In this document: in pieces, positions 1 to 48,254 of the stretch
How the letters are laid out: each line of letters opens with the position of its first letter
Numbering within the stretch: the first letter of the stretch is position 1
NCBI GenBank assembly: GCA_034620365.1
Contig: JAQGEQ010000062.1
Location: 1-64,000, forward strand
Length of the DNA: 64,000 nucleotides
Reading direction: 5' to 3'
DNA from: Pegea sp. RAD2-039
Taxonomy: Eukaryota > Chordata > Thaliacea > Salpida > Salpidae
Notes under the pieces: generated by a model
What the model was told of the DNA's origin: nothing
Seen by the model: only the letters and a program-made list of their open reading frames with translations
Databases searched by the model: none
Position numbers and translations under genes: made by a program

Positions 1-50
1 ACCCTAACCCAAACCATAAACCCTAACCCTAACCCTAAACCTAACCCGTA
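1..50. repeat. Degenerate telomeric repeat (CCCTAA)n
   Basis: About eight CCCTAA-like units, some with substitutions or length changes, at the very first bases. CCCTAA reading 5'-3' on the plus strand is the orientation of a left chromosome end with a TTAGGG telomere. Only about 48 bp are present, so a short interstitial telomere tract is the alternative. Confidence 0.75.
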
Positions 51-546
51 GTTTCCAGATACGAATAACAGAAAAGCTTTTACTTGTGATAAAACACTTA
101 AGGTATACCCCCTAATATTATGACCACCTTTGCACAAATACTTGAACAGATTTTGTAACTAAACATCAAAGTTTGCAAATTCCAACTCAAATTTTTAACA
201 GGAATCTCCAATAAGTTGGTTTGAATCATTTTCTTTTTCCTCTTTATAATTATCGAGAGTTCGAGGTTCACCACAAAACTGATAAAAGTGAAACTATTAA
301 AGAATTTTATAAACTGAAATGTATCCGGTATAAACTTTTAATCATACTTTTGATCAAAGTCTATTTTCATTTTCATTTTCAGCATCTCAGTTAGTTTAAA
401 GCCAAAGGTTATCTGATATCTAAACTTGATGAAAATTACAATTAAATCGAAAAGTTCTGTATCAAGTAAATATTTATTGCGAGAAAATAATCATCATGAT
501 TCTAACAATTTAATGGGGTGTCCAGTGATTCAATAGTGAAAAGAAA
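51..546. other. Subtelomeric spacer / tubulin 3' flank
   Basis: AT-rich, no coding exon seen. The part from about 401 onward is the 3' flank of the tubulin gene and is duplicated beside the tubulin pseudogene (from about 3458), so that duplication included noncoding flank. Confidence 0.5.
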
Positions 547-2589
<2,043 letters not shown>

Positions 2590-3457: not shown

Positions 3458-4076
<619 letters not shown>

Positions 4077-4708: not shown

Positions 4709-4985
4709 CATTAAAAAAAAGGAAAGATTCACAGTGTAGAAATGGTAATGTTGGTAATGTTATAACAGTTCAACTTCTGCTTGAACAACACGAGTGATTC
4801 TGACATGACAATATCTGATGGCAGCTGGTTTCATGTACTAATCGTGCGGTATGAGAAAAAATTCACTCTGACCAATGTACCAGGTGATATAAGCTTATTA
4901 AGATGTAATGTGTGTCGTCTGCGATGATATAACTTGAGGGAAGGACTAATAGAAAAAAAATCATTAAACTGGAGGTCAATTAGGT
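4709..4985 (-). mobile_element. Non-LTR retrotransposon 3' fragment (Jockey/CR1-like)
   Basis: Minus-strand copy of the reverse transcriptase C-terminus that is better preserved at 18.9-19.1 kb, recognisable by the ...TWNNLPSEIVMS...-like segment. It is truncated upstream, and its 3' UTR is interrupted at 4708 by the Tigger-like element. Confidence 0.8.
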
Positions 4986-5394
4986 TGTGGATAATATTAA
5001 ATTAATCTATCTTTTATAACAATTGATCCCGATTTTCTAATTTTATATTTAACTCATATGGAAGTCATAATGATAATAGTTTATATAATTATATACAAAA
5101 ATCCAATTTTATATTACAGTTTATTTCAGTTGCCTTTCAGCAAACTGAAAAACATTTCTCCATGTGATAATGAATCTATTAAAGTTTACACGAGTTTTTC
5201 ATCTCAGATTTAATCTAGTGTTCCAAATAATAACGGTTAAGTCAGAGCCTTTGACTTGAATAAGCGAGCTTTCCTTTTCTTCTAGTTTCTTATTTCCTTA
5301 TGATATTCTCAGTTACAAAAAATCATTGCCACCAGATTCTTAAAGATTTTATAAAGATTATAATTTTTCGTCTCTTACAAGATTGATTTGAGCT
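4986..5394. other. AT-rich spacer
   Basis: No supported feature seen. Confidence 0.4.
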
Positions 5395-5980: not shown

Positions 5981-8900
5981 ATGAATTCTAGTATAAATCG
6001 ATCAAAAATGCCAAAAAATGCTGAAGTAAGTTTTATTAGTTCTTGTTTAATTTATTTTTTATCATAAGTTATCGGCTACAAACAAAAATATTAGAAAAAA
6101 AGAAAATTTAAATAAAAATAAAGTTTTACTATTTTTCTAGAATATAATTTATATCAAACTTATTCAAGGTCTATATATATAAATTAAAAATTTAAAAGCA
6201 TTAATATTTTCGGAATTTTGCATAGATTTTAATCTAAACAAGTATTTTTATCCTAATAACGTTATTTTAAGCAAATTACATCAGATTAGAACATTTATAA
6301 AGGCACATAGCTTAAACTATCGAGAATAATTCTTTTTTGAGTAAAAATAAAAGAAAGTTTCTTCAAAAAATTATATTTAATCAGCAGACAAACTTGGCTA
6401 GCTTTCTTTTCCTTACAAGCCTAAGTTTGAAAATAATATTGTTTAAGTTATCATTATTAAACATTATTATTATTATTATATTTAAAGTTGTTTGTAGTTT
6501 AAGAAACTCAGAAGAGTTATAAATAGTAATAACCATACAAATTATTACAAAAAAGTATTGTAGAAATGATAACTTTGAAACAATATATAATTGTAAGACA
6601 AATTGTAATCATTTATACAATTTCTTTCAGATGTGTGCTCATAAACTGTCTTTAAACAGTGTTGATGACTTCATTAAAGCAATTGCTGAAGTATTTTTGA
6701 TGGATTTATTTTAATATTGTTTTTTGTAGAAAAATAAGCATTACAACTTAGTTATTTTAATTAAGTATATTAAAACGAATGTAAATCAATTAAAGTGTAG
6801 CATTTTGGGAGTTAAGCTTAAAATATGAGGGTTCAACTTTTTGTGAGTCATGAACACAAAATTATAGCTTAAAAGTTTGCAGAATTTCAGCATTAAAATG
6901 GTCATTACCAAATATCTTTTCAAAAAAGTCTCAAAAATGTTACTCCTCTGTAAACTACACTCTGAGATGACCTCCTTTTTCATAACCACAATTGTCAGAT
7001 ACGAATGAGATTTCACTTTAACAACTTAGCTTTAATTTTTAACATTAAATGCAAATATATTTATAAAATTTACGAACAGCAAAACAAAAAGATTCTTGAT
7101 TAAAATACCTTTTTATCTAAATATAATAAAAAGAACATTTTAACTTTATTACTTTTGCATTTTACTTTAACTGAATTAATAAGTTCTGAAATTTATATTT
7201 TAAATTTACGGGTCTAGATGAAAAAAGGTCATATAAAATTATTTAGCTCAAATTTTAGCATTTTTTTTGCGATTAAAATTAAAATATCTAAAATCAATTT
7301 CTATTTTATGTAGAATCTTGTTAACAAAGTTTTAATGGAGATTTCAATAAAAATGAGATGTTTTAACGAATGTAAACAAGCTAAACAATTTGAGGTGATT
7401 ATTTTGTATTAAAATACCTTTTTATTGATATTACAAGACAATAATGACACGCAGGGTATGCAGTAATAATAAACTTTAAAAATCTATAATTTCAATTTGA
7501 CATAATTTTGTTTATTCTAAGTATAAATTAATAATTGAAGCACCTATTGGTCCAGAGTATATTTTAAATCATTAAAATAACCGATAATTATTCGAAGTTA
7601 ACTCAAAAATTTCTCTATTAATTTAAGAAATTATCCATAAAAAAAACTACTGACCTATATAAAAACACGACAAATTGATTAAATAAACTATTCATTAATA
7701 GCGATTAAACAAATATAAAAAGTTAAAAAACTTTCTATAAATTAATTAATCTCGTTCAAATGACTGTAATGAGTTGCAAAACCTAAAATTACAAATCCCT
7801 ATAAACATCATGTAAAAATATTATAACAAACAGCTTTAGAATAATCGATTACAAAAATCTTTTAAATAATCTTTCAACAGAAAATTGAGAAAGGAAGCTT
7901 TTTGAAACTTTTAGTGGCAACTGATATTTTGCAACAAAAACATAATAATAATTGTCAAATAACTGAAAATGATTTGAATAATGAAAAGGTAATATTTTTT
8001 AAACCTAGTAATTCATTTGGTATTTAACCAAAAGAACTAACAAAATAACAAACTTTTTTTGACAACCTGAAACTTGTTTAATCTTTTAAATAATCTTTCA
8101 ACAGAAAATTGAAAAGAAAAACTCTTTGAAACAAACAGTGGCAACTGATATTTTGCAACAAAAACAAAATAATAATTGTCAAATAACCGAAAATGATTTG
8201 AATAATGAAAAGGTAATATTTTTAAACCTAGTAATTCCTTTGCTATTTAACCAAAAGAACTAACAAAATAACAAACTTTTTTTGACAACCTGAAACTTGT
8301 TTAATCTTTTAAATAATCTTTTGACAGAAAATTGAAAAGAAAAACTCTTTGAAACAAATAGTAACAACTGATATTTTGCAACAAAAACAAAATAATAATT
8401 GTCGAATAACCGAAAATGATTTGAATAATGAAAAGGTAATATTTTTAAACCTAGTAATTCATTTGCTATTTAACCAAAAGAACTAACAAAATAACAAACT
8501 TTTTTTGACAACCTGAAACTTGTTTAATCTTTTAAATAATCTTTCAACAGAAAATTGAAAAGAAAAACTCTTTGAAACAAATAGTAACAACTGATATTTT
8601 GCAACAAAAACAAAATAATAATTGTCAAATAACTGAAAATGATTTGAATAATGAAAAGGTAATATTTTTTAAACCTAGTAATTCATTTGCTATTTAACCA
8701 AAAGAACTAACAAAATAACAAACTTTTTTTGACAACCTGAAACTTGTTTAATCTTTTAAATAATCTTTCAACAGAAAATTGAAAAGAAAAACTCTTTGAA
8801 ACAAATAGTAACAACTGATATTTTGCAACAAAAACAAAATAATAATTGTCGAATAACTGAAAATGATTTGAATAATGAAAAGGTAATATTTTTAAACCTA

Positions 8901-11900
8901 GTAATTCATTTGCTATTTAACCAAAAGAACTAACAAAATAACAAACTTTTTTTGACAACCTGAAACTTGTTTAATCTTTTAAATAATCTTTCAACAGAAA
9001 ATTGAAAAGAAAAACTCTTTGAAACAAATAGTAACAACTGATATTTTGCAACAAAAACAAAATAATAATTGTCAAATAACCGAAAATGATTTGAATAATG
9101 AAAAGGTAATATTTTTAAACCTAGTAATTCATTTGCTATTTAACCAAAAGAACTAACAAAATAACAAACTTTTTTTGACAACCTGAAACTTGTTTAATCT
9201 TTTAAATAATCTTTCAACAGAAAATTGAAAAGAAAAAATCTTTGAAACAAACAGTGGCAACTGATATTTTGCAACAAAAACAAAATAATAATTGTCGAAT
9301 AACCGAAAATGATTTGAATAATGAAAAGGTAATATTTTTAAACCTAGTAATTCATTTGCTATTTAACCAAAAGAACTAACAAAATAACAAACTTTTTTTG
9401 ACAACCTGAAACTTGTTTAATCTTTTAAATAATCTTTCAACAGAAAATTGAAAAGAAAAAATCTTTGAAACAAACAGTGGCAACTGATATTTTGCAACAA
9501 AAACATAATGATAATTGTCGAATAACCGAAAATGATTTGAATAATGAAAAGGTAATATTTTTAAACCTAGTAATTCCTTTGCTATTTAACCAAAAGAACT
9601 AACAAAATAACAAACTTTTTTTGACAACCTGAAACTTGTTTAATCTTTTAAATAATCTTTCAACAGAAAATTGAAAAGAAAAACTCTTTGAAACAAACAG
9701 TGGCAACTGATATTTTGCAACAAAAACATAATGATAATTGTCAAATAACCGAAAATGATTTGAATAATGAAAAGGTAATATTTTTAAACCTAGTAATTCA
9801 TTTGCTATTTAACCAAAAGAACTAACAAAATAACAAACTTTTTTTGACAACCTGAAACTTGTTTAATCTTTTAAATAATCTTTCAACAGAAAATTGAAAA
9901 GAAAAACTCTTTGAAACAAATAGTAACAACTGATATTTTGCAACAAAAACAAAATAATAATTGTCAAATAACCGAAAATGATTTGAATAATGAAAAGGTA
10001 ATATTTTTAAACCTAGTAATTCATTTGCTATTTAACCAAAAGAACTAACAAAATAACAAACTTTTTTTGACAACCTGAAACTTGTTTAATCTTTTAAATA
10101 ATCTTTCAACAGAAAATTGAAAAGAAAAAATCTTTGAAACAAACAGTGGCAACTGATATTTTGCAACAAAAACAAAATAATAATTGTCGAATAACCGAAA
10201 ATGATTTGAATAATGAAAAGGTAATATTTTTAAACCTAGTAATTCATTTGCTATTTAACCAAAAGAACTAACAAAATAACAAACTTTTTTTGACAACCTG
10301 AAACTTGTTTAATCTTTTAAATAATCTTTCAACAGAAAATTGAAGAGAAAAACTCTTTGAAACAAATAGTGGCAACTGATATTTTGCAACAAAAACAAAA
10401 TAATAATTGTCGAATAACCGAAAATGATTTGAATAATGAAAAGGTAATATTTTTAAACCTAGTAATTCCTTTGCTATTTAACCAAAAGAACTAACAAAAT
10501 AACAAACTTTTTTTGACAACCTGAAACTTGTTTAATCTTTTAAATAATCTTTTAACAGAAAATTGAAGAGAAAAACTCTTTGAAACAAATAGTGGCAACT
10601 GATATTTTGCAACAAAAACATAATAATAATTGTCAAATAACTGAAAATGATTTGAATAATGAAAAGGTAATATTTTTTAAACCTAGTAATTTATTTGCTA
10701 TTTAACCAAAGAACTAACAAAATAACAAACTTTTTTTGACAACCTGAAACTTGTTTAATCTTTTAAATAATCTTTCAACAGAAAATTGAAAAGAAAAACT
10801 CTTTGAAACAAACAGTGGCAACTGATATTTTGCAACAAAAACAAAATAATAATTGTCAAATAACCGAAAATGATTTGAATAATGAAAAGGTAATATTTTT
10901 AAACCTAGTAATTCATTTGCTATTTAACCAAAAGAACTAACAAAATAACAAACTTTTTTTGACAACCTGAAACTTGTTTAATCTTTTAAATAATCTTTCA
11001 ACAGAAAATTGAAAAGAAAAAATCTTTGAAACAAACAGTGGCAACTGATATTTTGCAACAAAAACAAAATAATAATTGTCGAATAACCGAAAATGATTTG
11101 AATAATGAAAAGGTAATATTTTTAAACCTAGTAATTCATTTGCTATTTAACCAAAAGAACTAACAAAATAACAAACTTTTTTTGACAACCTGAAACTTGT
11201 TTAATCTTTTAAATAATCTTTCAACAGAAAATTGAAAAGAAAAAATCTTTGAAACAAACAGTGGCAACTGATATTTTGCAACAAAAACAAAATAATAATT
11301 GTCGAATAACCGAAAATGATTTGAATAATGAAAAGGTAATATTTTTAAACCTAGTAATTCATTTGCTATTTAACCAAAAGAACTAACAAAATAACAAACT
11401 TTTTTTGACAACCTGAAACTTGTTTAATCTTTTAAATAATCTTTCAACAGAAAATTGAAAAGAAAAACTCTTTGAAACAAATAGTAACAACTGATATTTT
11501 GCAACAAAAACAAAATAATAATTGTCAAATAACTGAAAATGATTTGAATAATGAAAAGGTAATATTTTTAAACCTAGTAATTCATTTGCTATTTAACCAA
11601 AAGAACTAACAAAATAACAAACTTTTTTTGACAACCTGAAACTTGTTTAATCTTTTAAATAATCTTTCAACAGAAAATTGAAAAGAAAAAATCTTTGAAA
11701 CAAATAGTAACAACTGATATTTTGCAACAAAAACAAAATAATAATTGTCAAATAACTGAAAATGATTTGAATAATGAAAAGGTAATATTTTTTAAACCTA
11801 GTAATTCATTTGCTATTTAACCAAAAGAACTAACAAAATAACAAACTTTTTTTGACAACCTGAAACTTGTTAAATCTTTTAAATAATCTTTCAACAGAAA

Positions 11901-14670
11901 ATTGAAAAGAAAAACTCTTTGAAACAAATAGTAACAACTGATATTTTGCAACAAAAACAAAATAATAATTGTCAAATAACTGAAAATGATTTGAATAATG
12001 AAAAGGTAATATTTTTAAACCTAGTAATTCATTTGCTATTTAACCAAAGAACTAACAAAATAACAAACTTTTTTTGACAACCTGAAACTTGTTTAATCTT
12101 TTAAATAATCTTTTAACAGAAAATTGAAAAGAAAAACTCTTTGAAACAAATAGTAACAACTGATATTTTGCAACAAAAACAAAATAATAATTGTCAAAAA
12201 ACCGAAAATGATTTGAATAATGAAAAGGTAATATTTTTAAACCTAGTAATTCATTTGCTATTTAACCAAAGAACTAACAAAATAACAAACTTTTTTTGAC
12301 AACCTGAAACTTGTTTAATCTTTTAAATAATCTTTCAACAGAAAATTGAAAAGAAAAAATCTTTGAAACAAACAGTGGCAACTGATTTTTTGCAACAAAA
12401 ACAAAATAATAATTGTCAAATAACTGAAAATTATTTGAATAATGAAAAGGTAATATTTTTTAAACCTAGTAATTCATTTGCTATTTAACCAAAGAACTAA
12501 CAAAATAACAAACTTTTTTTGACAACCTGAAACTTGTTTAATCTTTTAAATAATCTTTTAACAGAAAATTGAAAAGAAAAACTCTTTGAAACAAATAGTG
12601 GCAACTGATATTTTGCAACAAAAACATAATGATAATTGTCAAATGACTGAAACTAAATTTAATAATAAAGAGGTAATATTTTATTCTTTATATTATTATT
12701 ACTTTTTAAATTATATATTCTTTTAAGTTTTTAATATTCTTTTAAAACTTTATTTTATTTCTTAAAAAATTAAAAGATAAACCACCAAAAGTGTAGATAT
12801 TTTAGTTTTATCTATTTTCCTAATTCCCTGATTCTGTAAATCTTAGGACTTTGTTTTTTGATGTTTAATTTTTATATATTTTTCCAATTCAACAAGTTTA
12901 TTTCTCGTTTCATTTTTTTAAAGGAGTCCTTTTTTCGAATAAAGAAAATATCGAGTTCTGTAAACAAATCAAAAAAGAATAAGGAAAACCGTTTTTCAAT
13001 CAAGGTAGAGACTTTTAAGAACGATCTTTTTTAAAACTAAACATTTATCATAATTTTACTAAAGTTATGTTGGCTAGATATAAAGATTAAATAAAAGTTT
13101 TTAATAAATCTGAACGGCTTTCTACAAAGTTACAATTAAAAATATATTTTTTAAAGAAGCACATTCAGGGTTTTGAAATAGACATTTAAATTCTTAGTTT
13201 TTTAAACCTATTAATAGTATACAAGAATATAGAAACTATTTGAACGGAATTTTTCAATAATATTATTACATATTGAAAAAAAGTAAATTTGAAATTTTAT
13301 ACTTTGTAAGGCTTCGGTTCCTCAGCCTTCAGGAGAAAAAGAAAAATCCATTTACGAATTGGTCAGTTAAAAATTAATTATAAAATAATCCAAGTAACTT
13401 TTAACATTACTACCAAAATGGTTTATTTGCATGACTAAAATTTAGTGTTAAATATTTCTTCATTGATAAACATCAAACAAATATATAGAAATCAAAATTC
13501 TACGATGATTTACTTGACCGAATTTTAGAAGACAACGAACCAGTTTGTAGCTGGTCTTACATCAAACTTTACGAAGAGGTGACTTTTTATTTTCTTTCAC
13601 TTATTTCTTATAATCAAATCTAAGAGGTTTTTGATCAAAACATAACATTTGAAATTATAATTTGTTTGTTTGTTTAAATTTTATAATATAGTTTAAATAC
13701 TTTTTATCAATTTTATAGTAAAGATAAGTGTTTATTAAACTATCTAACTGTGCTGTCTGTTGTTTCAATTAACCAAAGTTAATCCATATACTTCTTGATC
13801 TAATCAGATGATTGCTAATGGAGATTATCATAAAATATTTTATGATGAACGTTACTGTGATGAGGATGATTTGGATGAAGATTCATTTGATGAATCTAAT
13901 TTAAATAAACAAGTAGCTTTGAGTTTGTCTTCTAACAGCATAAAAAGGACTTCAAAAAAGAGGACTAAGAAAAAAGTAAAACTTGTTTCTAACTTTAGAA
14001 AAATTTAAATATTATAACTGATATATCTAATAAAGTTTAAAAACTTTCAGTATAATTGTTTATATAATTGGTTATTCACTTTTTACTTTATTACAGATTA
14101 GCTGGAAAATTTGGCTCTATAGAAAAATGAATAAAATTCATCCGCAGGTTTGTTCGGCTTATTTTATAGTTAAATGTCAGTTTTATTGTTAAAATATATA
14201 AAGAAAAAACTTTCCTTTAACTGTTTTATATGGTTATAAACATATAACCTCTTTATATTGGTATAGCTCATAAGTAATACTTTATTTGATCGCTTCAACT
14301 GTAATCACATTGTAATTTATTGCTTTTTTTACTGCTACAAATATGACATTAAAACAATTAACATTTATAAATTAAATATTTAAAAAATTTTAATTAATTT
14401 TTCAGCCAGCCCCAGCATTTGAAGATATTTATCAAAAAGATACGGTAAAAGTTAGCTACCATTTTATAAAAATGTTTAATTTCTTTTCAATTGATTTTTC
14501 CTTGCTTCAACATATTAAAGTTTAAATTAAACAGTTTTCAGTAGCCTTTTATTAAAAGTTGTTTAAAATTCATTAAATATTTAAACTTATTTCTTGTTTA
14601 GCCTAAGAAGGGAATTAAGAAAACTATTTTGAGATTTTTTCGAGCTTTCAAGATTGGTAGTGAGTTCTAA
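5981..14670 (+). CDS. Novel 32-exon gene with 22 tandem identical-length exons; function unknown
   Basis: Assembled by eye from splice signals and frame. Unique 5' exons: 5981-6025 (ATG start, MNSSINRSKM...), 6631-6690, 7314-7394. Then 22 exons of exactly 108 nt starting at 7881, 8105, 8328, 8551, 8775, 8998, 9221, 9444, 9667, 9890, 10113, 10336, 10559, 10782, 11005, 11228, 11451, 11674, 11898, 12120, 12342 and 12565. Unique 3' exons: 12924-13004, 13326-13361, 13489-13578, 13808-13975, 14097-14147, 14406-14444, 14602-14670 (TAA). Every exon is a multiple of three, every intron phase 0, every boundary AG/GT. Total 3096 nt, 1031 aa: 62-aa head, 792-aa repeat core, 177-aa tail. The tail has an acidic run (DEDDLDEDSFDES) followed by a basic one (KRTSKKRTKKK), possibly a nuclear signal. 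No signal peptide or membrane segment in the assembled protein. I do not recognise the family. A start exon further upstream, or alternative small exons, cannot be excluded. Confidence 0.72.
7881..12672 (+). repeat. Tandem exon-intron array, 22 x about 223 bp
   Basis: Unit = 108-bp exon plus about 115-bp intron. The exon encodes 36 aa beginning KIEKKNSLKQ and ending ENDLNNEK with one Cys at position 25. All 22 exons are exactly 108 nt with no stop. Length changes of 1 nt occur only in introns (periods of 222, 223 or 224). Introns begin gtaatattttt and end tttcaacag, tttaacag or ttgacag. Exon variants: residues 10-14 are QTVAT in units 2, 7-9, 11, 14-16, 21; QIVTT in 3-6, 10, 17-20; QIVAT in 12, 13, 22. 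Unit 1 and unit 22 are the most divergent. Confidence 0.97.
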
Positions 14671-15765: not shown

Positions 15766-16242
15766 CCAATTAAAAATAAAAAAAATAAAATGATAATTGT
15801 CAAATAACTGAAAATGATTTAAATAATGAAAAGGTATTATTTTTTAAACTAGTAATAGTTACAGTTAAACATTAAAAACATTTAAACATTAAAAATTAGG
15901 TACAGTTAAACTAGTAGTGGCAACTGATATTTTGCAACAAAAACATAATGATAATTGTCAAATAACTGAAACTAAATTTAATAATTAAAAGGTAATATTT
16001 TATTCTTTATATTATTATTACTTTTTGAATTATATATTCTTTTAAATTTCTAATATTCTTTTAAAACTTTATTTTATTTCTTAAAAAATTAAAAGATAAA
16101 CCACCAAAAGTGTAGATATTTTAGTTTTATCTATTTTCCTAATTCCCTGATTCTGTAAATCTTAGGACTTTGTTTTTTGATGTTTAATTTTTATATATTT
16201 TTCCAATTCAACAAGTTTATTTCTCGTTTCATTTTTTTAATC
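15766..16242 (+). pseudogene. Broken duplicate of the exon array's end
   Basis: About 15790-15850 matches the 3' part of a repeat exon with its donor. About 15915-16240 matches the last repeat exon (from about 12597) and its downstream intron up to the acceptor region at about 12920, almost base for base. The copied exon carries a stop (AATAATTAAAAG instead of AATAATAAAGAG) and no downstream unique exon follows, so this is a nonfunctional fragment. Confidence 0.85.
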
Positions 16243-17860: not shown

Positions 17861-18239
17861 ATGGTAAGTGATCACGTGATCCTCTTCCAAATGTAATCTT
17901 CGATTTCTCAGGGTCTCTGATCACAAATATTCCAATTACGATTACAAAGAGTAAAAAGTCTTCATCTGAACTTCATGTAATCAACCACTAATTCAGTGGT
18001 CTCTGAGATAAATAAAATGTGATTGATTTCGAAATGTTGATGTAATGAAGAAGATCTTCTCGTATTTCTTCAATTTTTTTGTTTAAAACTTAAATATCGA
18101 GTTTTTATTCAGTTCTGTATGGCTAGAAGTAACTGGTGCGTAAACACACAGGATCAGTATACATTGGTAGAGGTGGTGGATGTTTTTATTTCTACAAAAT
18201 CAAAGATAGATTTCCAAAAACAGAAAATCTTGTGATTGT
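17861..18239. other. Flank of reductase pseudogene
   Basis: Noncoding; an AATAAA at about 18011 could be a relic polyadenylation signal. No other feature. Confidence 0.35.
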
Positions 18240-19264
18240 CGATAGTAGTTTTGATTGTGTATGCAGATGACATCAAGCTATTATCTGGTTCTCACTCAAA
18301 ACTCCAAACTGCACTAAACATTGTAGAAAACTGGTCTGCAAATTGGCAACTTAAAATCCAGCCAACAAAGTCTGAAGTTATAACATTCTCCCGTAAGCCA
18401 GCGGCCAACTTCAGCAACCAATACTACATCAATGGATCCATTCTTGAACGAGTATCCTCAGTCATAGACCTCGGCATTACTCTGACATCTGACTTCAAAT
18501 GGCACAGTTATGTTTCCAGAATCTTTGGAAAATCTATCAAGCTTGTCCACCTCATCATAAAGACTTTTAATTCTAAAGATCCATGGTTTTTCGTCAACCT
18601 TTTCAAACTGTACATACGCCCTATTCTTGAATACAATATCAGTGCATGGATGCCATATCAAGTTGGTGATATCAGAAAAATCGAATCTGTTCAGGCAAAA
18701 TTTACGAGATTGGTTTGCAGGAAACTTAATATTAAATACGAGAGTTATAAGCATCGTCTCAGCTTCTTCAATCTAGATACTTTGGAAATCCGAAGAATCA
18801 AATACGACCTTATTCTGATTTTTAAAATTATTCACAACCTAATTGATCTTCAGTTTGATGACTTTTTCTCCATTAGTCCCTCCCTCAAGTTATATCAACT
18901 TAGAAGACATAAATTACATCTTAATAAGCCCACTCCACCAGCTACGTTAACCAGATTAAGTTTTTTCTCATACCGCACAATCAGTACATGGAACAATCTG
19001 CCATCAGAGATTGTCATGTCAAAATCACTTATGCTGTTCAAGAAAAAGCTGAATTGTTATAATATCGCCAACATTGCCATTTCTAAACTGTGAATTTTTC
19101 TCTTTTACAATACTATGATTCTGTGCAGTTCTTCATTGTCATATGCTTTTTCGTTTACACGTCAAATAGATCTAATTTGTGAGAATGTGTGTTAGCGAGA
19201 GGTGCTCTTTTTAGGCACCCTCCTTCACATTTATTGTAATAAATAAATAAATAAATAAATAAAT
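18240..19264 (+). mobile_element. 5'-truncated Jockey/CR1-like retrotransposon with open reverse transcriptase frame
   Basis: Begins at the catalytic YADD motif (VYADDIKLL) and stays open for about 280 codons to a stop at 19093. It covers the palm C-terminus and thumb, with the segment TISTWNNLPSEIVMSKS near the end. It is followed by a 3' UTR with a GGTGC/GGCACC hairpin and a tail of AATA-type tetranucleotides. The fingers, most of the palm and the endonuclease are missing, so it cannot be autonomous. 5' truncation is typical of target-primed reverse transcription. Confidence 0.92.
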
Positions 19265-31719: not shown

Positions 31720-32783
31720 GGGGCATGTTGGACGTGTTCTGAGTGAAGATGCAAAAGCAAAGCACAGTGAAATGCGGAGGAAATTAACGAGCAAGACACA
31801 GTTAAATAGAATAGAAAAAAACCTTTAGAGCTTCTTTCTTTTCTTTATAGCTGATCTTATTCTCCTTATCAGTTGTTTATGAAGTAGAGAGCGCCATTTG
31901 GAGCAATCTACTGCGGTATCCTTCCAATTACTGGCATTGATGTTAAGCGATTTCATATCGCACTTACAGGTGTCTTTGAAACGTAAACAGAGACGGCTGA
32001 TGCTGCGTTTGCCCTTAGATAGCTCCCCGTATAACAGATCTTTTGGTGTCTGTCCGTCTTTTATAAGATGAAAGTGTCCAAGCCAGCGAAGTCTTTGCTT
32101 GTCTAGCATGCTGTACATTGTTGTCATGTCAGTGCGCTTCAAGATTTTCTTGTTTGAAACCTTTGCTGCCACTTTAAACGTAATAAACGATAAAGACAAC
32201 AAAAATAAAAGGTGTTAGGTTAATTTTCGTCAGCCTTCGACAAAGTCTAAGTTTCACTGGCGTATAAAAGCGTACTCTAGGCAAAGTCTCTAGAGATAGC
32301 CTTGCTTTTGATGGATAGATTTGAATTATCCGAGATCCAGCAAGTAAACCGTGCAAATATATCAGATGCTTTAACGATGCAGTATCTCGGCTTCTATTGT
32401 TACTGATGATGTTTATCTTTTCTAGGCTGATTTTTATTCCAAAGTCTTTACACGCTGCTGAGAATTGATCTATCAGTGACTGTAGGTCTTCTGCTGACTG
32501 TGAAACAATTGCTGCGTCATCAGCATGACGTAGGTCGCGGATGTAGATCTTTTTTACTCTACTCTTCGTATTTTGACGTAATGCTCTAAAAAGACTTCCA
32601 TAAGATCTTGAAGGGAGTTAAATTCCTTCAGCACACTCATGAAATGTTTGATTTAGCTATTTACTTGATAATAAGAAAAAGAAAATCCCAAGGAGCTTTG
32701 GGGCGAGGATATATCTTTGTTTTACTCTATTTTTGATGGTGAATGGTACAGAGTAGCTTCCGTTGTACTAGACTGTTGCCTTA
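31720..32783 (-). mobile_element. RTE-like non-LTR retrotransposon fragment
   Basis: Minus strand, several frames. From about 32780: a VPFTIKNRVKQRYILAPKLL stretch like the conserved GVKQGCVLAPTLF block, then RHADDAAIVSQSAEDLQSL (catalytic ADD), then a C-terminal open frame (31825-32202) with LRWLGHFHLIKDG, KDLLYGELSKGKRS and LCLRFKDTCKCDMKSL. These are typical of RTE-type elements. Endonuclease absent; stops between blocks make it inactive. Confidence 0.85.
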
Positions 32784-35766
32784 GTGCTTGTGTTAAATGG
32801 TTTCACCATGTTGAAGAGGCTAAGTGGGCAGCCAAACTTCAACAGTATAAAGAACAGACCCTCGCTACTGATGATGTTAAAAGTTTTAGCAAATTTGATG
32901 AACGCGATATACAAAGGTCTGGTTTGTGCTTTACATGATATGTGTCAAGATGATCGCTCAGAAAATAAGCTTCTTCTAAAAGAGTCGTATAAGCGAAATC
33001 AGAAGGAACAACCAACTGATTTCAAATACAAAGTTCGAGGTCCACCTTGTGCCTTGAGAATTGTCAAAGTTTTTTTCAAAAACGGAAGTGGCAAATAATC
33101 ACTAGACGCACATCTTCTTTTTTCAAACTTTCTCCGCACACAATTGTAATTACCATCCTTCCAGCCCAAAATATCAATTTACAAAAGCCTATCATCAAAT
33201 CTTACAAAAAGACAATTCTTCTATCACATTAGGTATGTTCTTCAACCCACCGGCGATTATCAACAAAATTTTTCAATTGAAAGCTCTTTTACGTTCTCAA
33301 GATTTCACTTTTGTTTTTATCACTGAAATTTGGTTGAAACCGTTTTATCCTGATTCTTTTCTGGTTGACGGTAATCTTTTTTGTGTTTTGCGTTGTGATA
33401 GACTGTATGATAGAGGTCGCGGTGTTTGCGTAATATACAAAATATCGCTTGCACCCAAGATCTCTAGAATTCAGATCGATCCCATTAATTGTCCAAGGTT
33501 TGAGATTATCGCTTTCGATTTTCATTACTCAAAGTCCAAATTTTCACGTTTTATATGTACCTATCTACCACCCTCTAAAACTGATGATGAGGTTACTGTT
33601 AAGGCCTTATTGAAGGTTCTGAAGAGTGTTGTGTGTCCCGATTTTTATATTTTGAGGGATTTTAATTTTATTAAAATTGATTGGAATAACCCGAATTTAG
33701 CATTTATTGGAAAATCGTTTAACTTGAATAGCGATAAAGCTAATTCAGCTTTTTTAAGTCATGCTTTTGTAAGCTTCCTCAATGCCAATAATCTATCTCA
33801 GATGACCTAGCAAGAAAACGTTTTTTGGTTTCATAAATCACAAGCTTAAGCCGAGATCTCAATTATCTCTCCTAATTGATAACAGCAACCAGCTTGTGAT
33901 GAAACCAGAGAATAAAGCTGAGTTGCTAAACAAACAATTTAATAGCGTTTTTATAACCGATGATGGCAATACTCCTTCTCTCTCCTACTCCAAAATTCCT
34001 ACAAATATCTCTAAAATGATAGATCTTGACATAACGGTCAATATGGTATCTAAGTCTATTTTTTCTTTAAAATCATCAGTTTCCAATACCCCAGATCAGA
34101 TCAAAGCTTTATTTTTAAGAAAAACTACTTCCTCTTTATCACTACCTCTATTGCTACTCTTTAACACGACTCTTAGGCGAGAAAGAGTTCCACAAATTTG
34201 GAAGAAAGCTTTTATTACTCCAATTCTTAAAAAGGGTCGCAGAAACACCGCACTAAAGTACAGATCAGTTTCGCTGACTTCAGTTATCTGCAGAACTCAA
34301 GAGCATATCATTCACAATCATATGACCAGTCATTTGATGGAGCACCATCTAATATCTGATGACCAGCATGGCTTTGTGAAACGGAGATCTTCCCTGACTC
34401 AACATCTCACTTTTCTTAATGAGCTTTCAGCTCATTATGGAAGTAATACTCCTGTGACATCATATACCTCGATTCTGCTAAAGTGTTTGATTCTGTCCCA
34501 CACAACAAGCTCATTACTGTATTGAAAAAACTTAAAAATCAACATCTTTATCTTACAGTGGATTGAAGATTACCTATCAGGTAGAACCCAACAAACTCGT
34601 GTAGAAAGATCCTTATCTACTCCTAGTCAAATCACCAGTGGTGTTCCTCAGGGTTTTGTTCTGGGTCACCTTCTCTTTTTAATTTTCATCGAAGACCTCA
34701 TCAGAAGACTAGTAGCAGTAGATGATGTCAGAGTGTTTGTGTATGCAGATGATATCAAGCTATTATCTTGTAATCCTTCAAAACTTCAAACTGCACTACA
34801 GACTGTAGAAAACTGGTCTACGAACTGACATCTCACAATCCAGCCCACAAAGTCTGAACTTATAACTTTTTCTCGTAAACCAGTTTCCAATTGCTTGAAC
34901 CAATACTCCATCAATAGATTTCTTATTCAACGAGTATCTTCGGTCCTAGACCTTGGCATTACCCTGTCATCAGACTTTAAATGACGCAATTATGTTTCCA
35001 AAACCTTTGCAAAATCAATGAGCCTTGTCTACCTTATTATAAAGACCTTTAATTCTAAAGACCCATGCTTTTTTATCAATCTTTTCAAATTGTACGTACA
35101 TCCAATTCTTGAATACTATGTCAGTGCATGGATACCATGTCAAATTAGTGATATAAAAAAATTGAGTCTGTTCATACAATATTTACGAGATTGGTATGTA
35201 GGAAACTTAATATTAAATATGATAGTTATAAACATCGTCTCAGCTTCTTCAATTTAAATACTTTGGAAATTCGACGAATTAAATGCGACTTAATACTTAT
35301 TTTAAAAATTATCTACAATTTAATTGACCTTCAGTTTGATGATTTCTTTTCCATTAGTTCTTCCCTCAAGTTATATCAGCTCAGACGACACACATTACAC
35401 CTTAAAAACCCATATCACCTGATACGTTAATAAGAGCGAACTTTTTCTCAATCCACCTAATTAATACATGGAACCAGCTGCCATCAGACATTGTCATGTC
35501 AGAATCACTCGCGTTGTTCAAGCAGAAGATGAACCGTTTCAATATTGCCAACATTGCCATTTCTAAACTGTGAATTTTTCCTTTTTTTAATATTACTAGA
35601 ACTCTATGTAATGATTCACTGTTATATGCTTTGAAAACTACCGAAGCCATATATTACATATCTTTTACTTTCTATATTTTTGACTAAATATGTTATTTGT
35701 GAGAATATGTGTTAGCGAAAGGTGCTCTATTCAGGCACCTTCCTCATTTATTGTAGTAAATAAATA
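32784..35766 (+). mobile_element. Jockey/CR1-like retrotransposon, longer decayed copy
   Basis: Broken frames in order: an ORF1-like part (LLLKESYKRNQ, YKVRGPPCALRIVKV; to about 33098); an endonuclease region (33235-33810: TEIWLKPFYPDS, then ILRDFNFIKIDW resembling the GDFN motif); a linker and reverse transcriptase start (33896-34525: WKKAFITPILKKGRRN, SLTSVIC). A frameshift follows, then DSAKVFDSVPHNKL, TSGVPQGFVLGHLLFLIF, VYADDIKLL at about 34740, and a C-terminal part to about 35570. The 3' hairpin and AATA tail end at about 35766. It is the same family as the copy at 18.2 kb. Multiple stops; inactive. Confidence 0.9.
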
Positions 35767-35940: not shown

Positions 35941-36619
35941 TGAGCTGAGACAGAAAAATTTATCTATAATCTTACAGAAATAACTTCTCGTTGAAACCCC
36001 TCACCTAGCTGATACAAGTTTGTTTACTATCAAATATTTCAGTAGCAGTACCTTCAGAAGGTTACCTGAACAAATTAGTAGTAAGTCCAGTTCGCCAATA
36101 CCAAAGTGAGAAACACTCTCGCATTTTTTGACTAAAACTATCATTGAAGATGTAGTTCTAGGACTAGAAGTTGAATGCGGAAACGTTAAGATCTCGATAG
36201 TTCAAATTGAAAAAATTAAAGCTCAGATAGTTTAAGTCTCATGTTTCAAGACAAGATGATTTGTATTTAAACTGATTAAATTTTTTTATTAATTGTGAAG
36301 AATATTTCTTTACATCTGTTTTAGTTTTATTAAATTTAATTTATATAACAAAAACTTGTATTCTGATGTAGCAGCTTAATTCTTAAAGTTTCAAAATCAA
36401 AAGTTTCTTAGATCGATTTATAAATCGAAAACAATTTGTTAAATCAGTCAGCTAACTACAGATAGATAAATCGAACTATTCCATTAAAAGCAAATTTAAT
36501 CGTAAGCTTTTTACAATTCTGGCTTATCACTAAAATGTCTCAGATTTAAATCACCTTTAAAGATACGTTTCAGAAAAAGCCATTTTTAACAAAACTTAAA
36601 TTTTAACACAAAACACGAT
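35941..36619. other. Spacer downstream of HEATR1
   Basis: AT-rich; 3' flank of the minus-strand HEATR1 gene. Nothing else recognised. Confidence 0.35.
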
Positions 36620-39600
36620 TTAATTATCTAAATATTTCTGCAGTGATTCATCCAATAACTTCTCGAGTTGTTGAATAACTTCACGACAGTGAGTTTCTAC
36701 CATCAAGCTTTCATCTGTTGAAAAACTCAGGTGAGACTGTAGCAGATGCAGAAAAACCTAAAATGTTACCTTCCATCAGCTCGGCGAAATAAGGAACCAT
36801 CTCAGGAAGAACAATTCGGTACTCATCACCCAGACGTTCAACCAAATGCAAGATAGCAGAGGGTGCTCGACAACGAACCTTACGATAGAACGAGTTTGAG
36901 AAGATTTCAGCAGAAAAATGAGTAGAAAACCTTTTCTGATAGATGTCTAATCTTCTGCAATACTTCATGGTTGAGTGGTTGCCAGCTGACGTCATCAGAG
37001 CACGATACAGCTAGTTCTCCGATACACGGAATCACATGATTAGTGACGTAATCATCGGCAAGTTGTTCATCTTTACTCAAAGCTTCCAACTAAAGAAGAT
37101 GTAGATATAAGAGAGACACAGAAGCAGGAGGAAGATTACTTGATGAACAAGAGGTTGGAGCAACTCTTCCATCGCTTCTTTCGTCATATAGATCTTTCCA
37201 CAATACAACAAACAAGATTTAAAGGTATCAACTGCCGCTATAAGACCCGCGAAGTACTCCACTTCAGTTCTTCCTCCTTCTATTATGTAAGAGGTTGATC
37301 TTTAAACAGTAGATTGGGAAGAAGACTCACCTGTTGTCTTCAACATTTGTGAAAGATGACTGACAAAGACGGAGGCTGAAGGAGTGAAAAGGACTTTGAG
37401 TTTGTTTACAATCAAGTGAGTACATCGATAAAAGGAGAAACTACGACTGAAGCTGTTACTACATTCACAAATACTCCATTCGTGTAGCTAAAGATGATGA
37501 AGATCAGATGATGAAGATCAGATGATGAAGATCAGATGATGAAGATCAGGATGAGGACTTACTCTTAGGAAGAGTTGACGGAAAGTGGCTTCAGGAAGTT
37601 TGATGAAGAGATTGAGAATAGCTTCGAGTGTTTTGGATTCCACATAATCCACCTCATCGAGACTCAACTAAAGAAAATCGGATGATTTAAAGATGAAAAT
37701 CTTCGGAAGAACTTACTTCTTGATAGTGTCCTCGGAAGTCAAGAACTCGAAGATAAAACTGGAAGATCTGCTCCGAGAGATTATTAATGTCTTTCTTCTT
37801 GATGTTGTCACAAAATAGTTTGGCAAGATGAAGAAGAGGTCCGAAAGAGAGAGGATGTGAGGACTTCTCGATCTATAGGAAAGATTAGGATGAAACAAAG
37901 ATCAATAAATGATGAGGATCATAATATAAGGGTTAGGAGGTGATGAAGATACTTACTCGACCGCAGCAGCTTTTAAGAGCATCCAGGACACTTTGTATCT
38001 TCAGATGAGTTGGGATGAAGTTGATTAGCGCCTTCAAGCGGATGCAAATGATTCCACCGACATCAGTCGACTGATCGAGCTTCCGGGATCGTTTTTCGAG
38101 GAACTTGAGCGCTTTTTCATCATCTTGATGAAAGTTGATCCGACGAATCGAGGAGAGGATTGAGATCTGGATGAAGATGTTGAAGAGGAGCAAAAGTGGA
38201 GGAAGAAATCGCTTACCCGGAGCATAAGATCAGGGAGAGCAGGTCCGAGAAAAAGAGGAAGAGCCGAGAAGATCTTCTGAGTGGAAAGAAGAAGGATGTT
38301 CAGTAGCTGTGAGTCTTCATCCGGAGGTAGAGCATCAAACACTCCTTCTAATGTCTTAGTTATCCTAAAAGAAATGACGTCATTAACGCGAGAAGAGTTA
38401 GTCACATGACTGACTTGGGCAAGTACGCGATGCAGTGCGCTTTCAACTGTGACGTCATCTCGCCAACGACAGCAAGCAAAGAAGTGACGATCTGCAGAAG
38501 TTAGGATGAGTTGGGACAGAAATTGATTTGAGGGGCACCTTGGGTCTCGAGATGAAATTGTTGATAGTGTCACAAAGAAAAGAGAAATGTCGCGTGAAGG
38601 AAGTTAGTTTGGCGCGATCAACCAATCGCAACACGTGTTTAAGCGCAACAGCAGCTGATTGGATAAGAACGTCAGTTTCTGCGTCTTCATTTAATCTTCA
38701 AAAAGAAAGAGTAAGGAAATGGCCACTAGGTGGCGATAGAAGTTACTTAGGATGTTCAAATAGAATTTGGAAGAAATTGGTACTTAAATCCACAACTGCA
38801 TCAACCTGAAAAAGCGAGAAGATTTAGGAAGATAAGAGAAAAGATCTTTGAAAGATATGTGAGATGAAGATCAAAATGCTCTGACCTCTGCTTCACTCAA
38901 AGAGTCTGTGATGTAAGTGATTCTTGTGTTAAAAAGATGAACACTTCGATGTAAGATAAAAGTCTTCTGATGATCTTTCATCAGGTCACTAACTACTGAT
39001 AAAAACTTGCTGGTCGGTAGGCTGACATTGGCCTGCAAGACATGTGGTCAGCATTTATGTGGTCCTAACCACTGAAGTTGATGGTCACTTTAGTAAGAAT
39101 CTCATTTAATCGATGAATAAGAGTCTTGTGGTACTTCTCAGCTGATAAATCACTGACATCACGATCTTCAGAAGATTTAGAGATAAAGTGGATGTAAGAT
39201 AAGATTGATCCGACCAAACTGAAAGAGATTCAAATGAGCTGATTGCTGATTGGTTGAAATGTTGGGAACCTGTTCTTATTCGACTCAAGACATGTTTCAA
39301 AATGATTTGAAATTGAATGTTTGGAAGTTTGAAGTAAATTAGAAATAAATGTGAGAATAAGTAAAATAAATCGACGATTCTGTTTAGCACTCTTCACATC
39401 CAAGTTGATCACTGACTTATTTTGTCCATGACTTTTCTGTTTCTTATCTACAACTCATATTCTAGTTGCTGTGAATCAAATCATAGAAAATCACCTGTTT
39501 GTGGAATTGTTGGTAGATATTGCAGCAAATTTACGACACATTCTAATTGTAAATTAACATCAAATAATTTGACTATCTGGCACCAATCAGAAACCATCGT

Positions 39601-42600
39601 TTCTAGCGATGTCTTTGCAACAGAATCACTATTAATCTGAAAGAGTAGAGTTAAGATGAGACAGAAAATTAATAAACTAATTACTGATTGGTTGGCTTCG
39701 TTGTCACGTGACATCATATAATGATCAATTAATAGAAGAATGAGGGAGTGAAGATATTGATCTGTGCCGACTACCTCCATCAATTCTTGGAAGACCATTG
39801 ATCTGCAAGTGATCAGTTATCAAAAGATCAAAGATGAAAACATCAACAACCTTCTGTGGGCTGGTATATGCGGATAAGCATCAACAAACACTCTTAATAT
39901 TGAGATGATTGATTCATTCGTGTCTTTAGAATCCTGTTGAACATATTATATATAAAAGAGGTAGACTTTAAAAGATGTAGTACATGAACAAAAATAGCTG
40001 GAAGAATTGTTTTGATGGCTTCACTGATAATCTTAAATGAAAACAAATCATCTCTTTGTAACAAATTGTTCCCAATAAATGTGAAGACTGACATGACAGT
40101 ATGAAGTACTTGCTCCTACAAGATCGGATCTGTTTAATTGAGTTGCAAATGAGTCGGGATACTAACCGGTAGAAAGGAAGCGATGGAAGCTAACACGAGT
40201 AAAGCTTGTTGACATGTTTGTACATTAACACACGATTGAACACAGTCCACCAACAAGTTGACCTATTTAAAGTTTCTTTTTTATATTTCCATCAATTTAT
40301 TGAGTTTTTCAACAAACTTTTATATCATTTTGAAGATTATCATCTAATATCCGAGAAGGATCAACTCTTTTGAGAAGATTTTCTAAAGAAGCAATGATCA
40401 GTTGACACGTGTAATCAAAATTGAAATTCCAGTCATTCTTCTTCATGATAATAGCAAGAAGTTGGAAAAGAGGTCCTATCAGTTTCTGTGAAGAACAATT
40501 TTACAAATTCACTCTCTAGAGGTAGATCTCTTACTTGTGAATTAGAAATCTTCTTTTTCATTTGAATCATCTCAAGAAGAGTGATGAGACGCTTAAAAGA
40601 GTCTTCTGTTCTACTTCCATCTACAAATTACAAACTGAATTTGATCTGAAATTGATTCTTCAACCAACCTGCAGATTTCTTCGAAATTATTTTGTTGATA
40701 GAAGAGCAACAGGTCTTGAGTTCATCAGCAAGATGAAGTCCTTCAACTCGGATGTTCTACAGAAGAAGATCTGATGATCATTCATCATCAAGAAGGAAAC
40801 TTTACCTTGAAAGCTTTGTTAGTAGCTTGGATAACATTTATGTCTTCAGATGTAGATGCAGTATCCAAAATAGTTTTCAAAATCATCTTCTTCTGATCTT
40901 CATCAGATGATTTGTAAAAGTTGGAAGTGATGATGCCTATTAGTAACAGAATGATAAACAGATCAACATCCGGGAGTCTTACCAAAAGCTTCTATTTGCC
41001 AATTGCAAATGTTAGTTTGAAGGATCGCGTAAAAGAAGCTCATGACGTCATCATGTGACGCGATCAGCTGAGGTGTCACGTGATGGATGGCAAAGGTCAA
41101 GAGGTCGCTCTCCGGTGACGATAGTTGAGTGATTTGCGTCTTTTTATAGAGATCAGATGAAGATTGAAGGATTTGAAGGATCAATTTTGGATTCTGGATC
41201 TGAAATAAGAAGAGTAGATGAGGATGAAGATGAAGAGCGGATTTGAAGATACTTTGTTTAAAACTGAAGTGATAAATGTTGAAAAGAAAGGTGTGAGATG
41301 AGAATGATGCAACAAATCTTCCAACTCTTTCGACTTCTTCTCGCGTTCCAACATTTGTCTTTCTATAAACGACTCACTTCAATAAAACGCCAACTAGTGA
41401 GTGAATGAGAAAGACTCACTTTTAGTTTTCGCGATTACGTCATCAAAGTAAAGATGAAGAAGTGAAGTTGTCTCCTCGGAGTTTGTCAAGATCTCTTCCT
41501 GATGTAGAAGTATTTTATCAACTAAAGTCTTCAAACTGAAATAGAAATTAGATGAAAAAGATGATCAGAAGAGAAAGAGGATCACCTGAAGAGTTTTTGA
41601 TGATTTTCAAGGATTTCAAAAGTCTTGGATCTGATCTGTACGGATGAGGATGCAAGAGCAACTAGGAGCAAACGAACTACTTTCATCTCACTTTCATCTA
41701 TCATCTTCTTCTACAAATAAAAACTTTTATTTCTACGTCAAAAATCATCAAGACTTACTCGGAGTTCATTGGGAGCAGCTGTAATGATCTCACTTAAGAG
41801 CTGGATGCAAAGAAAGCGGATGTCGATCGCGAAACTAGGATCACTTCTATTCATCAACAGATCACTACTCCAAACGTGACTAAGAAATTCAGCAGTCTTT
41901 CCAAGATCCGCAAAAAATTGAGAAAAAGTCGAGATAAAGAACTGATGAAGAATATTAACACTGGGAGAGTCAAGTTGAAGTCGGGCACAAAAGAAGATGA
42001 AGATCTTGATGTGAGAAGATTGGATACTGGAAGATGAATCAGTTAAAGCAGATGATAATTGAGGGATTAGATGGAAGATCTTCTGCTTGTTCTCGTTCTT
42101 ATATTGACTGTAATCATCAACAACTTCCAATACATGATTTGTCAACAAGTTCAACATCTCTACATCATTTCCTGATCTTGCAATCTTGATCCCAGCCGCT
42201 AAAAGGCAGCAAAGAGCAGTTGAGCAGCGAATTTTAAGGAGGATGCTTCTGCTGAAGATATCTCTTGCAATCTTCAAATTCTTCTTCAACTTTGATGGTT
42301 GTTGAGTAAATGAGGAAACATAAACATCAACAACAACTTCCATCACAGAATTCAAATCTAATTGAAGAGATCTTTTAATATTCACCACAAATCATAAAAA
42401 CTCTTCACCTTTTTCATTTACAACAGCATTCAACACCTCACGTGACAATTCATTGTTTTCGACATGTGATGACGTCATGAGCGCTTGAAGAAGTTCGATT
42501 TTGTTGGAGAAGTCGCAAGCACCAGCAAACAAGTAGTGAATGATCCCAAAATGGATGAGATCAGAAGAAGATTGGAAGACTTGAGAGGAAAGAAGTCGGA

Positions 42601-44965: not shown

Positions 44966-47183
44966 ATTTAAAACAATCTAAATAAAAACCTAAATTAAAG
45001 AAAAAATATAAAGTTGAAGAATTTTAGATAAAAAATTACTTAAATGTAAATTACTTGTAATAATAACTGATAAAATAGTTGCAAAGTTTATATAAAAACT
45101 AATAATTAGTTTTAACTTAAACAATTAAAATTTATATATAAATTATCATACTGAAAATAATATTGATATATAAAAATAATTGATATTAATAATAGTAATT
45201 AATATATATTAATAAAACATAATATAGATAGTTATCCAGTATATGATAAGAACTAATCAAACTTAAAATACACTAAACCTCAATATTTATATACTAAGCA
45301 AACAACAATTAGAAAATTGTTATTCAGATAAAATGAAATTACAACAAAAAACCAAGAACAATTTTTAATAGCAATATATACATACACAAAATACTAAAAG
45401 TACAAATATACTTATCAAAATTAATTAAATAAATTAATAATTATCTATAAATGTGTATACATTTCATCTTTAACAATAGTATAAATTTTACTTATATTAT
45501 ATATTCATATATTCTATATAAGTATAAGATAATTAAATTGAATATTGTCATATAAATCTAGCTATGTGTTCAATTTATATTCTAAACTTTATACATTTAA
45601 AAAATGCACCAACAACATTCTTTTATTTACAGCTAAACTAAAATAAATACATTTAAAAAAATTATAAAAATAATTTTAATTATAAAGCGTACTGAAAATA
45701 CCATTTACCAAACTTAAAGTGGTACGGATAACTTGGCTTAAAATATAACTCTACAAAATGTCCACACGTGTTTCGAAAGTATTAAATCCAAAATATATAA
45801 AGCCGTTTTGACTGTATTATTTTCAGCAAAATGGGAAAATGAAGTTACTGAATAATAAGGTTCAAATATCTAATATAGAAATATAAGAACATTGTAAAGG
45901 CATAAGTACAAGTTATATGAATTGCAAAAATAAAAAATAAGTGGAAAATGAAACAAACTACCTATTTCATATCACTTGTTAACAAAATTACTTAAATTAT
46001 TTCTTAAACACAATTTTTACAGAGATTTTAATGAAGTGGTAGAGTTTTAATGAAGTGGTAGAGTCGAGAAGAACATTGTAAATTATCACTATCGAAGAAA
46101 CTAGTAATCCACTGAGTGACTTTAAAGTTGTTGAGTGGGTTAAATTTGAACAATTCTATCAACGTATTATAGATTATTAAAGAAGTAACTAGTTCTACAA
46201 ATGTGTTTCTTTTAAAACTTGAATACATTATTAGAAAAATATACCTTTCAAGTAATAGTTCTAGATGCAAACTGAGAAAATTTTAGTCTAAAAAACGTTT
46301 CGCGCGTTGTTACGAATAGAGAAGAAGTGTTTAGTACCATAAATAAATCAAAAATAAATTTTTAACTTGTAACTTTTTATGCTGCACTTTTAGTTTACAC
46401 CTCTGCTATATTTTAAGATAGCTCAAAAATTGTTCGACAAAAATTATTCTGTGTATATGTTATTTAGTTAAAGATTTATGTAGTTTATATAAATTTATAA
46501 GTATCGAAATTATAGCATTTTTTGATACTCTTATTGTTTTATATCAATCACCATTAATAGAGGTGCAATCAAAAAACTTGGAATTTGCTGCAAATTCATC
46601 TAAAACTACCTTTTTTACGTATCACAAGAAAAAGGATAAAAAATTAATAAAATTTTATTTCATTTTTGTTATCGTTTTAGACTATAGATATTTATGTATA
46701 GCTTAGGTTTAAATGGAAAGATGAAAGTAAAATATTTCTTTCTATTTTATTAACGTTTAATGAAAAAATCATTTGAATTTAAAAATGAAAAAAACCAAAT
46801 TACGACTTCTTATGCTTTATATAAATAAGTCATATTCGTACTTTTGTGATAAAATTATGTAGTTAATAAAATAGCAATATTTAGATTACAGAAAATAGAA
46901 ATCATTTTATGTTTGTTAATATTAAAATAGTTAGTTCAATTTTTAATATTTATATTAGTTGTCAAATTAGTTTCTAATTTGTTTACGTTATAATTTTGTT
47001 GTCTTATTTTGAAGGTTTTCAATTCTTGTTTAATTTTAATTGGTGGTTTTTATTTTTTAAATTTAAAGTTAAACATTTATTTATTATAAAAGTTTATTTA
47101 TTTTCAACTATATAAAGTAATAGCTGATCTAATTGTTAAATTATTAAAAAAAAGTTATTGATAAAGAAGCTTTTTTTCTGCTT
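44966..47183. other. Divergent intergenic region HEATR1 / C1orf43
   Basis: Very AT-rich 2.2 kb between divergently transcribed genes, so it should hold both promoters. An 18-19 bp direct duplication (TTTTAATGAAGTGGTAGAG) occurs at about 46025-46064. No exon or RNA gene seen. Confidence 0.45.
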
Positions 47184-47972: not shown

Positions 47973-48252
47973 ATTATTTATATTTATTTGCTAATCAATT
48001 ATTATATTATTCTTTATAATTATTTCATTTCTTTTAAATTTTTCTTTAAAACTTCATTAAAATCCAGGTTATATATTATTATTATTATATAATAAAATAT
48101 TACTTTCAATTTTAAAACTATTCTTTTTTAAATATGTAGCTACTTATGATATTTTATTTTAAATTGTTTTCACTTTTTGTGATACTTATGGCTTTATATA
48201 ATATCAAATCTTATATACATTCAATGTCTTATTTTTCGATATTTTTATGTTC

Positions 48253-48254
48253 AG
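48253..48254 (+). other. Putative splice acceptor before ATP23
   Basis: TTTTTATGTTCAG ending 56 bp before the ATG; candidate trans-splice or 5'UTR-intron acceptor. Confidence 0.45.

Follow-up and report, generated by a model that had tools for sequence, protein, structure and literature searches.

The first 64,000 nucleotides of contig JAQGEQ010000062.1 (C142:1-64000; the window) from the salp Pegea sp. RAD2-039 contain, on the forward strand at positions 5981-14670, what is probably a tunicate protein-coding gene whose exons 3-24 arose when a single 108-nt exon and the adjoining 115-nt intron were amplified as one by unequal exchange, with all of these units spliced into the product. The proposed gene comprises 31 exons (39-168 nt), all of them multiples of three in length and in phase 0, and is composed of 22 repeat units and nine unique exons (two upstream and seven downstream of the array), yielding a predicted protein of 1009 amino acids (aa). 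Judged from the sequence and from its comparison with another copy of the gene, located on contig C27 of the same assembly, the model of a spliced protein-coding gene with nine unique exons very probably holds. The encoded protein is an orphan, while the genetic mechanism is already known from the KIV-2 repeat of LPA and from spider silk genes.

One tandem array was detected at 7856-12682 by Tandem Repeats Finder (period 223, 21.6 copies, 97% matches). Scanning for the pattern CAG + 108 nt + GTAATA returned 22 units at 7881-12672, each measuring exactly 108 nt between AG and GT and following one another in steps of 222-224 bp. A single shared frame (phase 0) is open in 22 of the 22 units, and each unit encodes one Cys; the scan thereby confirmed a preliminary description of this DNA, which had reported 22 consecutive 108-nt segments preceded by CAG, followed by GTAATA, open in one frame and with one Cys each. 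The consensus of the unit is KIEKKNSLKQIVATDILQQKQNNNCQITENDLNNEK, the forward frames +1 and +2 of which carry four and seven stops, respectively. Unit 1 (exon 3, 7881-7988) and unit 22 (12565-12672, ending in ...TETKFNNKE) are distinct from units 2-21 (8105-12449), which form 20 near-identical exons separated by introns of 114-116 nt. Length variation in the array is confined to these introns, most of which have 115 nt and some 114 or 116. Units 2-21 occur in 13 distinct DNA forms and 11 distinct peptide forms (n=20), with a mean of 3.97 mutual differences per 108 nt among them. Exon diversity in the array (pi 0.0368) is nearly fivefold higher than inner-intron diversity (pi 0.0076); positive selection on the units is nevertheless not claimed, since the proportions of variable sites (exon 12/108 vs intron 5/115) do not differ significantly (p=0.077) and unit sites 36 and 37 vary together without exception. 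No stops are present among the array variants, where 0.7 would be expected from the count of possible changes. The sequence of the unit thus seems to be loosely constrained, whereas its frame and length are preserved.

Genome searches, which covered the 105.7-Mb assembly of 387 contigs, revealed 26 matches to the unit, i.e. the 22 of the array, three on C27 and a broken copy at 15893-15991. Only C142 and C27 were retrieved at E<=1 with the C-terminal 108 aa and with the preceding 74 aa, and the 3' part of the gene matched at the DNA level only these two loci and a fragment at 15992-16240. The C27 copy possesses the same nine unique exons in the same order, all 11 of its introns are of the GT-AG type, and it encodes 325 aa with three units, as compared to 22 in the window. 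Window unit 1 differs from the first unit of C27 at five of 108 positions vs a mean of 12.95 from the inner units, and window unit 22 likewise differs at 5/108 positions from the last unit of C27 vs a mean of 11.7 from the inner units, while the inner units differ from the middle unit of C27 by a mean of 9.9 per 108. By these distances, the middle unit of C27 stands for the 20 near-identical inner units of the window. Introns diverge between the copies by 6.0% upstream and 3.8% downstream of the array (about 5%), and compared with these values the inner-intron pi of 0.0076 supports the earlier proposal that the exon was amplified recently along with its intron. Length change by 36 aa per copy without loss of frame, likewise proposed before, is supported by the 22-unit and 3-unit forms both being open.

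According to the mechanism favoured here, the ancestor would have carried a middle unit between two end units that were each distinct, a form retained by C27, and in the lineage of the window the middle unit would have multiplied to 20 via unequal crossing-over or conversion between 223-bp units. As exon and intron would travel as one, the gain or loss of 36 residues per exchange would leave frame and splice sites intact. We infer the direction to be gain in the window; shrinkage in C27 is conceivable instead. The whole locus would be transcribed, 30 introns removed and every unit included to give the 1009-aa protein, in which a variable helical repeat region would be joined to a constrained basic C-terminal part. 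Use of the units as alternative exons, by single choice or variable skipping in a Dscam-like manner with the array serving isoform diversity, is unlikely: the frame would be kept under any choice, since all exons are multiples of three and in phase 0, but merely 11 peptide forms exist among the 20 inner units and few positions differ, so that choice would add little.

Coding is supported by the changes between the two copies of the unique exons, which display neither indel nor stop (gaps at 0/654 sites vs 8/3238 in introns) and in which silent changes affect 10/122 sites vs 16/529 for replacements (ratio 0.37, p=0.017). The C-terminal exons are under constraint between the copies, as documented by their substitutions: exons 28, 29 and 31 show zero replacements, silent changes outnumber replacements per site in exons 27, 28, 29 and 31 (4/66 vs 1/309, p=0.004, with exons picked post hoc), and only one of 234 sites is changed in exons 28 and 31 (p=0.001 vs downstream introns, also post hoc). 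Codon usage, scored against a training set of seven open window stretches (two lacking a Pfam match), prefers frame 0 among the six frames in seven of the nine unique exons and also in the unit.

Individually, exon 1 (5981-6025; MNSSINRSKMPKNAE, donor GTAAGT) is open from ATG with one of 45 nt changed in C27, and exon 2 (6631-6690; MCAHKLSLNSVDDFIKAIAE) has its AG/GT kept there, with six of 60 nt changed and five replacements. Downstream of the array, exon 25 (12924-13004) retains frame and splice sites in C27 with 8/81 nt changed, exon 26 (13311-13361) retains its splice sites with 2/51 changed, and exon 27 (13489-13578) has 3/90 changed, including one replacement. Exon 28 (13808-13975), encoding an acidic and then Lys/Arg-rich stretch, has a single silent change in 168 nt and hence an identical protein in C27, exon 29 (14097-14147; ISWKIWLYRKMNKIHPQ) has a single silent change in 51 nt, exon 30 (14406-14444) has 4/39 nt changed with three replacements, and exon 31 (14602-14670), which includes the stop TAA, is identical in 69/69 nt. 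All are located on the forward strand. That the flanking unique exons stay in frame was thus borne out, as they are open and spliceable in the C27 copy too. The ten unique exons and 1031 aa given in the preliminary description could not be reproduced, nine exons and 1009 aa being supported: no 66-nt candidate for a tenth was present in the nine introns between the unique parts (searched for segments of 30-180 nt), where the search yielded 22 segments with an open frame and splice sites in both copies, the best having a codon score of 2.3 bits. Nothing in the window reached the gathering score of any Rfam family.

Several observations weigh against a coding gene. Two of the three reverse frames of the unit consensus are free of stops as well, so openness alone is little proof. 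Replacements account for 10 of the 12 variable exon sites within the array, which approximates the ratio of possible changes (253:53); judged by these sites, array variation shows no constraint on the unit's own sequence. The codon score of the unit is -0.01 per codon vs 0.16 to 0.54 in the training stretches, and codon usage does not prefer the frame of exons 25 and 29. Between the copies, indels are too few for their absence from exons to count heavily, and exons 2, 25 and 30 together with the end units are neutral-like in their changes (21 replacements, 7 silent; p=0.32). The unique exons are overall not less diverged than the introns (26/654 vs 162/3238, p=0.32); what speaks for coding is the silent/replacement pattern given above. 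Finally, no homologue was found among 5.8 billion proteins in searches reaching proteins of 0.55-1.75x query length with exact shared words: none of 3943 candidates for the C27 protein reached E<=10, and none of the 807 obtained with window residues 828-1009 reached E<=1. The same protein collection does hold a JGI/Logan protein 95% identical to the product of the neighbouring gene PPIL2 (49088-50650, a single open reading frame (ORF)), the closest named relatives of which, among 120 listed, are ascidian (Ciona intestinalis 65%, C. savignyi 64%, Phallusia 62%, Styela 58% identity), a placement that makes a tunicate host very likely.

A broken duplicate of the array end and of 249 bp of the following intron is located on the forward strand at 15778-16240. 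It consists of the pieces 15778-15856, the unit-like 15893-15991 with an in-frame stop (TAA) inside, and 15992-16240, which is 99% identical to the gene's own intron; over 326 bp it is 98.2% identical to the window gene and 92.9% to the C27 copy. Such a fragment, the missing protein match, the two open reverse frames and an array whose start is some 8 kb away from a contig end bearing telomere-type repeats would fit a non-coding subtelomeric satellite bearing splice-like motifs and an open frame by chance. This explanation is improbable, since nine flanking exons have retained open frames and usable splice sites in C27 and, per site, their silent changes between the copies exceed replacements, and since distinct end units preserved across copies and indels restricted to introns are unexpected for a satellite. 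An equally low probability is assigned to the window copy being a pseudogene in decay at a repeat-rich chromosome end, for which the nearby fragment and the replacement-rich exons 2, 25 and 30 and end units could speak; both copies are open throughout, and exons 28, 29 and 31 lack replacements between them.

The predicted protein is rich in Lys, Asn and Gln, as had been stated for the product of the 36-aa units, contains 0.5% Gly and 2.3% Ala, and starts with MNSSINRSKMPKNAEMCAHKL, in which no hydrophobic signal is evident by eye. The view that the unit belongs to no described family stands, with neither a protein homologue (C27 protein; window residues 828-1009) nor a Pfam family (C27 protein) retrieved; the only Pfam match of the C27 protein was a sub-threshold one to InlJ_IG (E 0.76). 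Structure prediction for a single unit (from an alignment of 12 of the 22) suggested two helices comprising residues 2-24 and 29-34 (mean pLDDT 75.5, pTM 0.33), and a Foldseek comparison of this model with the PDB yielded nothing at E<=10. Among the papers listed by literature searches on tandem or repeated exons, none was recognisable by its title as describing this gene. A surface or host-interaction role, as suggested earlier, found no support: no signal is evident by eye, and the most conserved part is basic and weakly H2B-like. The product is probably intracellular, perhaps nuclear, and most likely would act within the cell as a repeat region, adjustable in length or valency, joined to a constrained basic end.

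Histone gene clusters are present on contigs C46, C309, C11, C5, C105 and C361 (150 matches scored of 221 candidates); loci retrieved for H3 hold H1, H2A, H3 and H4, and the five H2Bs read, taken from other loci, display two tail classes. The stretch SIKRTSKKRTKKK-ISWKIWLYRKMNKIHP, spanning the border of exons 28 and 29, aligns ungapped with the H2B tail and first helix, covering 26-29 residues with scores of 56, 64, 59, 64 and 57 for the five host H2Bs. Block shuffles (n=3000) reached these scores 8, 0, 4, 0 and 4 times, and the best of 4405 background frames scored 46 against the same H2B. A hidden Markov model from the five host H2Bs gave 15.8 bits vs <=11.8 in 2000 shuffles, and the PDB match to H2B had an E of 0.33 with the whole C27 protein (325 aa) and of 0.035 with the C-terminal 75 aa. 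All H2B comparisons were made after the fact. The H2B alignments stop at HP, and the remaining helices of the histone fold (2, 3 and C) were not found; membership in H2B was rejected for want of helices 2 and 3. A tblastn search for the H2B continuation gave no convincing match in the window; downstream of exon 31 only weak scattered matches appeared, the best of which (E 0.059) is interrupted by a stop, lies on the minus strand and was discarded. At E<=10, a Pfam search with the C27 protein did not return the Histone family, its filters dropping most matches above 0.1. Partial relation to H2B is therefore treated as a weak lead, noticed post hoc. It is doubtful, at a probability comparable to that of the satellite, that the protein is a divergent chromatin protein partly derived from H2B, with the usual tail extension replaced by a helical 36-residue repeat that is polymorphic between 3 and 22 copies; if true, the length of a chromatin protein would differ between haplotypes in a tunicate.

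From the sequence comparisons, it is about equally possible that the window and C27 copies are alleles or subtelomeric duplicates. Homology extends beyond the gene, with window 0-15 kb corresponding to C27 120.8-110.4 kb, 36-44 kb to 26.6-18.8 kb and 46-52 kb to 14.9-9.4 kb; the blocks are mostly 93-97% identical (few shorter pieces 86-90%) and occur in the same order with different spacing. For window 57.5-63.5 kb, no second copy beyond short repeats was found in the genome, and a 4-kb sample of contig C1 is single-copy. Alleles are plausible in view of the precedent of Ciona savignyi, whose heterozygosity is documented to be high enough for alleles to assemble separately (PMC1868934). Window positions 1-47 consist of degenerate TTAGGG-type telomere repeats at the end of C142. 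At the homologous place, C27 has nine bases between two matched pieces and then continues for 157 kb, which makes subtelomeric duplication about equally possible; 4 kb compared from this extra 157 kb share only pieces of ~75-115 bp with the window. No telomere repeat was present in the last 2 kb of either C142 or C27.

Upstream of the gene, an alpha-tubulin gene (537-2092, minus strand) and a second partial copy (3458-4074) have relatives on C27, C26 and C35 at 91-95% and weaker ones on other contigs, and a ~290-bp element at 4714-5001 recurs on many contigs with ~88-91% identity among the matches listed. Remains of reverse-transcriptase ORFs are located at 18236-19093 (+), 32174-32617 (-), 33106-33810 (+) and 33806-34525 (+); Pfam RVT_1 was assigned to three of the four, two of them below the curated cut-off, and not to 33106-33810. 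Minisatellites of 14 bp are present at 37492-37554 and 56784-56832, and with 36000-44000 as query 577 genome matches were obtained, the former minisatellite accounting for most of those listed. A satellite at 55549-56458, based on GGACACATTTGATGG and showing compound periods of 30-97 bp, is situated just past the end of C27 homology at 52034, and C27:1-9354 has no match of >=250 bp in the window. Ordinary genes at 47148-53294 and 60292-61896 (-) encode NICE-3, a peptidase M76, PPIL2, part of RMC1 and a tRNA pseudouridine synthase.

The gene provides a clean natural case of change in protein length by whole exons, with the 3- and 22-unit forms occurring in one assembly and their recognisable end units allowing the process to be followed. 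Should the copies be alleles, a chordate would here carry an extreme polymorphism in exon number that preserves the frame. The orphan protein moreover pairs a nearly frozen basic end with a loosely constrained repeat. Surprise is only moderate, since LPA and silk genes work alike.

The LPA kringle protein and spider silks are secreted, and schistosome micro-exon genes combine many symmetric, mostly very short exons with signal peptides. The present gene shares the many symmetric exons of the latter, but its exons measure 39-168 nt, and by eye it shows no evident signal for secretion. Sperm H2Bs of hydrozoans and sea urchins are described as carrying a long N-terminal extension before the H2B tail (PMC9903204); the predicted protein would resemble them in having an extension ahead of an H2B tail, if the H2B-like stretch is real, and differs in that no SPKK motif is seen by eye and only tail and helix 1 align. 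In spider Flag and Argiope MaSp2, successive introns are near-identical, intragenic recombination has homogenised the exon-intron units, and silk repeats consist mainly of A, G, P and Q (PMC1885213, PMC9779670 for the genes; PMC9779670 for composition). The iterated near-identical introns of the window array resemble this organisation, while its protein is Lys/Asn/Gln-rich with neither Gly/Ala-rich repeats nor, by eye, an evident signal peptide. Of the systems considered, LPA KIV-2 is the nearest known parallel to the proposed genetic mechanism: its exon+intron units stand in tandem within a coding region, number 1 to >40 between alleles and adjoin single-copy relatives, each unit spanning 5.5 kb and containing two exons (160 and 182 bp) (PMC4378929, PMC6314250). 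Both arrays are composed of tandem in-frame, near-identical exon+intron units (here 22, with 97% matches) whose number differs between gene copies. They differ in scale, as the unit described here has 223 bp with one 108-bp exon and belongs to an orphan protein, and allele lengths were measured for LPA, whereas two gene copies, alleles or duplicates, are compared here.

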